From Desulfobacterales bacterium (GTDB lineage Bacteria > Desulfobacterota > Desulfobacteria > Desulfobacterales > DTYH01): a stretch of DNA of 42,092 nt. A model generated the notes under the pieces. The model was given only the letters and a program-made list of their open reading frames with translations. It did no database searches and was not told where the DNA came from. Below are positions 18,826 to 21,366 of the stretch, one piece after another. The stretch covers positions 1-42,092 of the forward strand of contig DTYH01000248.1 of the NCBI GenBank assembly GCA_012961955.1, written 5' to 3'. Every line of letters begins with the position of its first letter. Position 1 is the first letter of the stretch. A program made the translations under genes and the position numbers.

Positions 18826-19227
18826 GTAACATCTTATTCTATTGAAACAAACCCGGCATCATCAAAAGCCAAGCCGAATACTGAGTACACGACAGGGGAT
18901 GCAAGATACAAGACTGTGTAGCACCAGGCAAAACTCATTACAATTATGGGCTACGTGTGAACCCCGATATAGAGCAAACAGCCATAACCTTCGTGAGTTG
19001 ATAATATTTGTAGGGGGTCTTACGCCCCACAACAATTTGGGTGCCGTATGAAATCCCACCCTGCACTTGATTTTCCTCATGAAAGGTTAGGCTGATAACT
19101 ATATTTAGGTGCGATATCTTCCGGCCCAGTGCATCATATATCCTCCATCTCGCATCCTGTAGCCTGTATCGTAATTCCAGCTTGAGTTGTGATGCAACCG
19201 ACTCGTTTGAGAATGCTAAAATGCTAC
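18826..19227 (+). mobile_element. Long terminal-inverted-repeat element, copy 2 (MITE-like)
   Basis: About 402 bp, beginning GTAACATCTTATTCTATTGA and ending with the inverse of GTAGCATTTTAGCATTCTCA. It is collinear with the inverted copy at 6150-6557 and with the shorter one at 21061-21366. The subterminal segments GATGCAAGATACAAG and CATCTCGCATCCTGTAGCC are inverse of each other, so most of the element can form a long hairpin. No transposase frame is visible. Confidence 0.75.
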
Positions 19228-19399: not shown

Positions 19400-21031
19400 C
19401 TACCATCTCCTTGAATATTCCCGGTATATGCCAGCCAGCTTCTCTCTTACCTTTGTTCTTAGGATCTCGAGTTGTTCCGTGTTCGGAGGTTCAGTCTCCG
19501 GCACGCTGGAAGGAACCTCTATTTCGAACCCTGTATTCTCGACAACCTTCCGAGGCGAAACACCAGGATGAACCGATTCAAGGATAACCCTTTTCCGCTC
19601 CCTGTCCGCCCTCATCACGGCCAGGTTTGTTATTATTTTATATGGCCCACCAGGCCTCTGCCAATCGTTGAGACCGGCATTGAACCCCGAGCACGTAATA
19701 AAGTCGACTTTTGAGACGAAATCCCTCTTCGTATGGCTCATCTTGAACATAATAATCTTTTTTGCCATATGGTAAAGCATGGAGCTACCAGCACCGCCAG
19801 GAAACCGTATCAGAGGTTTCTGGTGTTCCCCTATAACTGTAAGGTTAAGATTACAATCCCCATCCATCTGAACGAAGGATAGAAAGAACAGGTCAATCAG
19901 TCCTCTCTGGGCCATGTCAAACAACTGAGAAGACCCTCTGTCCAACGGAGAATCTGGATCACCCAGTATAATCAATTTGACATGAGGCGCTGTGGTAAGG
20001 GAAGCCAGAATGCACCCGGCAGCTGGTACCGGGGAGAGAGTGCCAATAGCTACACAAGTGCCGTCATTCACCTCTCTTGCAATGAGTGTCATAATGAGTT
20101 CATCCAACGTATAGTCTCCTTTGCCAGGACTCATTGAATGTTTGTCTCGATCATCCCGGTATTGTGGTCTCCACCCTTCCTGCTTCACAAGCCTTATGTA
20201 GTCGTCGTGGCCGGTGAGGTCATATATATAGTTTTTTAGATAGGTCCTGAACAGCTCTTCATCAGCCGCCATCTTCACATATCGGGTCATGTGATCTCGG
20301 TCTATACAATAGTATCCTGGACAACTCACAGGATGTGCACCAAAAGGAACATGAACTATGGCATAAAAATTGATCCATGAGATCAAGCGGGTCTTTTCAT
20401 CTCCTACGAGCTCACCTTCTTTCACGACCTCTTCCACAGTTGCGATAGCCTTTTTTGCAGCTTTGACGGCGAGGTCGACATCCGAATGCCTTTCGATCAG
20501 CACATTCCCTCTTTCGTCGGCCTTTAATGCGTGGATAACAGAAACATCTGGCGTTATGGCCTCTACTACAACTGTTTGATGGCCTGAAAATGGGCACCTT
20601 ATCACCTTGAATCGTGGTTGAACCCTCAGATAATCTGAGCCGAGTATGCCGCGCACCGGAATAAACGGTATTCCCATAGCTCCAGCCCGGAGCCCCGACA
20701 ATATTGCCGGTCAGACCTGTTCTGATACCTTAACCTTTCCCTTTTGGACTTGCCGCCGGAAGTTGGGCGCCTGGCCAAACTCGTTTAGTACCACCTGAGG
20801 GGTCTCCACAGACTCCACGCAACCAGCACCTACTAGCATGTCAACGTTTATACCACCACCGGGGACGGTAAGGAGTCTAAGCCTCTTCCTGCCTTGTCTC
20901 ACAAGTTCCCTTACAAAGGCCACGGGTTCCATCTGCATACGTCCTCCAACAGCCAGAAGCGAACCATCAACCACCAGCCTTGCGGCATCCTTGAGTGACA
21001 AAAAGGACGGCCCAGAGGGTCCTCCGGTCAT
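19400..21031 (-). CDS. Single-chain CoA-transferase-fold protein with in-frame UGA (candidate Sec107 or pseudogene)
   Basis: One frame of 544 codons carries a complete alpha domain (residues 1 to about 290: AARLVVDGSLLAVGG, LRAGAMGIPFIPVRG, GSDYL, DVSVIHALKADERGNV). A beta domain follows (about 310-543: ELIMTLIAREVNDGTCVAIG, FITCSGF, HPGVSPRKV). These normally form two glutaconate-CoA-transferase-like subunits. A TGA at 20713-20711 interrupts it at codon 107 without a frameshift, between VSEQV and PAILSGLRAG. A SECIS-like stem follows. AAAGGAGGAG precedes the ATG. The usual catalytic Glu of the beta subunit (ExG after the APH strand) reads LGDPDSP here, as if hydrolase-like (compare IpdAB) or inactive. 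Selenocysteine, recent nonsense mutation and sequencing error all remain possible. Confidence 0.6.
20679..20693 (-). promoter_or_regulatory. Candidate bacterial SECIS element (CoA-transferase gene)
   Basis: On the mRNA, GCUCC-GGGCU-GGAGC spans +18 to +32 after the UGA: five perfect pairs (plus a flanking G-U), with a 5-nt loop that starts with G. Size, spacing and loop G closely match the element after the HesB-like UGA in the same window. A tight stem CCGGCAA-UA-UUGUCGG directly follows the UGA. Confidence 0.5.
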
Positions 21032-21060
21032 AACTCCTCCTTTGGTATTGAGCTAAAATC

Positions 21061-21366
21061 GTAAGACTTTAGCCTCTTGAAACAAACCCGGCCACATCAG
21101 AAGAGAAGCCGAATACCATATATATACGATCCAGGATACACGACGCAAGATACAGGATCATATAGCGTCGGGCAAAACAATTTCGGTGGCACATGAAATC
21201 CCACCCTACATTTGGTTATAAAAGGTTATGCTCATAACTATATTTAGGTTCGATATGTTCCCGCTGAATGCATCATATATCCTACATCTTGCATCCTGTA
21301 GCCTGTATCGTAAGTTTACCTTAAGTCTGATGCAACCGGTTCGTTTCAGAATGCTAAAATCTTACC
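21061..21366 (+). mobile_element. Long terminal-inverted-repeat element, copy 3 (internally deleted)
   Basis: This 306-bp copy begins GTAAGACTTTAGCCTCTTGA and ends with the inverse of GTAAGATTTTAGCATTCTGA, about 40 bp of terminal inverted repeat. Compared with copies 1 and 2 it lacks about 100 bp of the centre (the CCGATATAGAG...CATAACC block). It lies just upstream of the CoA-transferase gene, so it may carry or disrupt its promoter. Confidence 0.75.

Follow-up and report, generated by a model that had tools for sequence, protein, structure and literature searches.

A predicted selenoprotein family with a class I CoA-transferase fold and selenocysteine in its putative active site

We analyzed a 42,092-nt stretch of DNA from a Desulfobacterales bacterium (contig DTYH01000248.1; hereafter the window), in which a previous reading made from the letters alone (the sequence-only reading) had proposed a new selenoprotein with a CoA-transferase fold. 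Reading of the open reading frame (ORF) confirmed that the frame is open on both sides of one TGA at codon 107; this is the only TGA in the ORF, and there are no further stops or frameshifts. The span that had been given for the gene also held, with the refinement that the gene lies on the minus strand, where a strong ribosome-binding site is found 5′ of the ATG (Table 1). The product matches the Pfam CoA_trans family, and the host genome has only distant paralogues of the gene. It had been described as encoding a single chain, which is correct for the window, where alpha and beta domains are fused, and is the exception among the UGA loci examined: in the others, alpha and beta are separate genes or, in one family, there is no adjacent beta gene. 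Two genomes of this family (f79) have the UGA-bearing alpha gene by itself, and its partner, if any, lies elsewhere. Because standard gene calling would split UGA-type genes in two at the UGA, the enzyme is likely mis-annotated in all of its genomes.

Table 1. Coordinates of the features of the predicted selenoprotein locus and of a second UGA-containing gene in the window.
Feature	Position	Strand	Details
Fused alpha-beta CoA-transferase-fold gene, predicted selenoprotein	19400..21031	-	543 aa, predicted Sec at residue 107; PF01144 E=1.8e-41; AF2 pLDDT 88
UGA (predicted Sec) codon 107	20711..20713	-	UGA at identical codon in 25 distinct genomes
SECIS-type hairpin	20678..20694	-	core 5-bp stem 20693-20679, outer G-U pair, apical loop GGGCU
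Alpha (GctA/IpdA-like) domain	20177..21031	-	about residues 1-285
Beta (GctB/IpdB-like) domain	19403..20143	-	about residues 297-543; without catalytic Glu and its loop
Ribosome-binding site AAGGAGGAG	21034..21042	-	precedes ATG
HesB-like (Fe-S_biosyn) gene, IIRIG-U-GGPRLG	about 14138-13788, UGA 14042-14040	-	in-frame UGA and downstream hairpin

A scan of GTDB genomes with an alignment of four relatives as the query retrieved two Desulfarculaceae loci (L069 and L070) that are 62-64% identical to the window gene and have UGA at the identical codon; a plain single-protein query against genome contigs gave no matches. When 395 genomes of the phylum were sampled, 22 had an in-frame TGA inside this gene, and in all loci retrieved from this sample, 18 of them beyond the Desulfarculaceae pair, the TGA was codon 107. 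Four more genomes with UGA at codon 107 brought the number verified at the codon itself to at least 25 distinct genomes from many families across the phylum, a count that leaves out two of the 22 TGA genomes (G445 and G582). The nearest relatives that do not have the UGA carry Cys at column 107 (n = 10); they include the nearest ones within the order (three loci, 44-46% identical), and Cys-type sequences come from Desulfobacterales, Rhodospirillales, other Alphaproteobacteria, Methanomassiliicoccales and Archaeoglobaceae. The sequence-only reading had guessed that relatives might have Cys at this position and had proposed to look for Cys or UGA there in other genomes; both were found, with the Cys in a sister subfamily that spans bacteria and archaea. 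Trp or Arg was never found at column 107 in the sister clade. IpdA-like members have Glu at this column, and in distant CoA-transferase relatives of the order it is mostly Asn or His, which taken alone would argue against Sec. A reading of the column as Asn was discarded, as it came from distant paralogues only and the nearest relatives have Cys. The in-frame stops of many distant relatives were also rejected as extra UGAs, being alpha/beta junction stops that comprise TAA, TAG and TGA alike.

A tree built from 99 alpha sequences placed the UGA and Cys types together in one clade (support 99/90), with Glu-type sequences branching just outside it. All UGA sequences fell within a subclade (99/95) whose only Cys members are two long-branched, weakly placed sequences from Alphaproteobacteria. 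Among 390 genomes sampled from its own class, that of the window alone carries the UGA gene. The gene is bounded on both sides by direct repeats of about 80% identity (18826-19227 and 21061-21365); these are copies of a dispersed repeat, about 180 bp long, that matches the genome at some 46 places. Given the sole occurrence in the class and the flanking dispersed repeats, we infer that the window gene was likely acquired by horizontal transfer.

Downstream of the UGA, a 5-bp stem (GCTCC/GGAGC) with a 5-nt loop (GGGCT) occupies positions +18 to +32, exactly as had been claimed. Its fold as a single sequence (z = -2.2; 4 of 200 shuffles equally good) is modest evidence when taken alone and decisive when joined with the comparative data. 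In an ungapped alignment of 21 UGA genes over 60 nt, the stem was paired in 99% of cells, and pairing fell to 32-66% when the partner was slid by one to three bases. Eight double-sided changes were seen in the stem, with GC/CG (15:5) and CG/GU (17:3), and the covariation score was 0.367 vs. 0.164 in shuffled alignments, with neither the score nor the paired percentage matched in any of 500 shuffles; these counts track families, and independent events are fewer than cells. An independent measure agrees: synonymous conservation in the UGA genes is highest at codons 112-119, the site of the hairpin (0.68 vs. a mean of 0.45, sd 0.06; first of 234 codon windows), while the same codons rank 229 in the Cys genes, where the peak is absent. 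The sequence-only reading had kept as its counter-hypothesis that the TGA is a sequencing error or a recent nonsense mutation, which would make this an ordinary CoA-transferase gene; a draft assembly of 308 contigs and a single stop in an otherwise open frame might suggest as much. This is excluded by the identical UGA in so many families, the covarying hairpin and the Cys of the sister clade. Since the UGA and the conserved hairpin recur in at least 25 genomes, we regard the family as real and not as a broken gene.

Among the genes for selenocysteine insertion that it had been suggested to look for, the host genome has a tRNA-Sec (77 bits, UCA anticodon), SelA (626 bits, above cut-off) and a SelB fragment that is cut at a contig end and scores 220 bits, below the curated cut-off. 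tRNA-Sec sequence lies at the ends of two host contigs (C299 and C18), probably because the assembly is broken across selC or because the gene is duplicated. A tRNA-Sec above 67 bits was detected in 19 of the 22 UGA genomes; a strong one was not found in the other three (G733, G676 and G445), perhaps because these are incomplete drafts. An in-frame UGA is also present in a HesB-like gene of the window, and HesB-like proteins are a recognised selenoprotein family (PMC13188914). The hairpin of this gene had been said to have nearly the same geometry as that of the CoA-transferase-fold gene; its stem is likewise of 5 bp (GGTTC/GAACC, at +21 to +35), but its loop (UGGAU) starts with U instead of G. 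UGA readthrough is known to occur in bacteria, and UGA-107 might be read as Trp or Arg, whether by a changed code or by near-cognate readthrough, or might serve as a regulated stop at which the subunit is split. We consider this very improbable in view of the Cys, and never Trp or Arg, of the sister clade, the SECIS-type covariation, the UCA anticodon of the tRNA-Sec and the presence in the window of a HesB-like gene, whose family is an established selenoprotein one. The candidate selenoprotein is thus supported by UGA recurrence, the Cys sister clade, hairpin covariation, the synonymous peak and the selenocysteine machinery, and these comparisons indicate that residue 107 is almost certainly a real Sec.

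In a phmmer alignment that is ungapped through the region, U107 is matched with a residue of IpdA for which 6CO6 has Glu and 6COJ has Ala, 6COJ being, we assume, the E105A active-site variant of IpdA. Residue 107 starts a helix (residues 107-119) in the AlphaFold model (pLDDT 88, pTM 0.86), and a Foldseek search with the model matched CoA-transferases at the level of fold. We found no CxxU or UxxC motif and no nearby partner Cys for U107 in the selenoprotein. Judged from the sequence alignment to IpdA, Sec107 is likely to lie in the active site. True class I CoA-transferases have a catalytic Glu in the beta domain (Glu54 of GctB). This residue is missing from the beta domain of the window protein and from both the UGA and the Cys families; its loop has also been lost from the UGA family and from part of the Cys family. 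Glu54-beta has a catalytic role in CoA-transferases, where the glutamate of the beta subunit forms the CoA-thioester, and IpdAB, which has no Glu54-beta, did not transfer CoA (PMC5380842). Set against class I CoA-transferases, the protein has the fold and the domain pair but not the beta catalytic Glu; set against IpdAB-type hydrolases, it shares the loss of the beta Glu but has Sec at the position aligned with alpha Glu105. The enzyme is a CoA-transferase by fold and probably not by mechanism.

In both Desulfarculaceae loci, the alpha and beta genes are preceded by those for a VOC protein, an AMP-dependent acyl-CoA ligase and an acyl-CoA dehydrogenase and followed by those for a TAXI-TRAP importer, and the neighbors in L069 include an FrhB-like Fe-S flavoprotein. 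Two of the Cys-type relatives (L074 and L075) are paired with an acyl-CoA ligase, DUF169 and an MtaA-like protein. In another genome (G652), the UGA-type genes have as neighbors a pair of Asn-type paralogues and genes for an enoyl-CoA hydratase-like protein and an amidohydrolase. One cluster (L173:561-5888) holds a UGA-type alpha/beta pair and a paralogous one of Asn type, and it also contains an amidohydrolase and a gene resembling enoyl-CoA hydratases. No steroid catabolism cluster was seen at the loci examined, which is a difference from IpdAB. The neighbors differ between genomes and f79 has no adjacent beta gene, so the members of the UGA family may not all share one function.

We consider it very likely that the UGA genes are a genuine selenoprotein family within the class I CoA-transferase superfamily, and we propose for it an IpdAB-like, acyl-CoA-cleaving function. 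SelB and Sec-tRNA would decode UGA-107 with the assistance of the hairpin, and Sec107, placed at the N-terminus of its helix with no CxxU/UxxC partner, would serve as catalytic nucleophile, or as acid/base, by attacking or activating an acyl-CoA thioester or its beta-carbonyl. The outcome may be hydrolytic or retro-Claisen cleavage, or acyl transfer via an acyl-Se-enzyme. In the Desulfarculaceae, the Sec enzyme could complete a pathway for imported carboxylates that leads from the TAXI-TRAP importer through the acyl-CoA ligase and the acyl-CoA dehydrogenase. Acyl-CoA cleavage with Sec as the nucleophile is favored because of the alignment with IpdA, the loss of the beta Glu, the lack of CxxU/UxxC and the acyl-CoA genes nearby. 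Selenium use by Sec107 is probably non-redox, and we put the chance that Sec107 is the nucleophile in acyl-CoA cleavage, in neither a redox nor a structural role, at about even. The full proposal of a first CoA-transferase-superfamily selenoprotein, in which Sec as a non-redox nucleophile forms an acyl-selenoenzyme and cleaves acyl-CoA thioesters or beta-keto C-C bonds in anaerobic bacteria, is more tentative, with a chance slightly below even.

Alternatively, the selenoprotein may be real and Sec107 may have a redox or sensing role (reversible oxidation, persulfide, metal handling) instead of one in acyl-CoA chemistry. Most known selenoproteins are oxidoreductases (PMC13188914), the host organisms appear anaerobic and an Fe-S flavoprotein is encoded near the gene in L069; however, such a role is unlikely given that U107 has no partner Cys nearby and is aligned with the Glu of a hydrolase, and that the operon in the Desulfarculaceae is one of acyl-CoA catabolism. 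The enzyme might also still be a CoA-transferase in which Sec107 stands in for the beta Glu and carries the acyl group or CoA, as would suit its fold and the chemical possibility of a selenoester between Sec and an acyl group. We judge this improbable as well, as IpdAB, likewise without the beta Glu, gave no CoA transfer (PMC5380842), and as the Desulfarculaceae loci have their own acyl-CoA ligase adjoining, which makes a transferase less needed. If Sec107 is the nucleophile in acyl-CoA cleavage, as we favor, it would represent a rare non-redox use of selenium and would offer a testable reason why the enzyme pays for Sec.

The 2026 review of the prokaryotic selenoproteome, which cites Haft and Tolstoy 2025, covers 119 families/subfamilies, and a CoA-transferase selenoprotein is absent from it as well as from the 2022 review, deep-Sep 2025 and the GOS survey, in agreement with the earlier statement that no selenocysteine member of this family is established. 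No report of a Sec CoA-transferase was found in the literature searched, and NCBIfam (June 2026) has no dedicated model for the family, which is apparently undescribed so far. The bacterial selenoproteome would gain one family, for which the comparative evidence is very strong, and Sec would be placed in a fold and a chemistry (CoA-thioester catalysis) that are off the current list.

Like known bacterial selenoproteins such as the HesB-like family, the UGA family combines a UGA and downstream hairpin with Cys homologues and with SelA, SelB and tRNA-Sec; unlike them, it has no CxxU/UxxC and no Trx fold. Glutaconate CoA-transferase (GctAB, 1POI) shares the fold and both domains, with a clear alignment over alpha and beta, but the selenoprotein lacks the equivalent of Glu54-beta along with its loop and has Sec at 107. 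AibAB of Myxococcus (glutaconate CoA-transferase family, 5MZW series), presumably a decarboxylase, is a CoA-transferase-fold enzyme and, among PDB sequences, matches the alpha domain best (1.8e-30); it differs in having Gly at the U107 column, and the residue varied in its mutant series is in the beta subunit. The COCHEA-CoA hydrolase IpdAB (6CO6/6CO9/6COJ) resembles the selenoprotein in its alpha/beta fold, in the absence of a catalytic beta Glu and in having a catalytically important alpha residue (Glu105) at the column of U107, although identity is low, Sec or Cys takes the place of the Glu, and the two domains are fused in the window.
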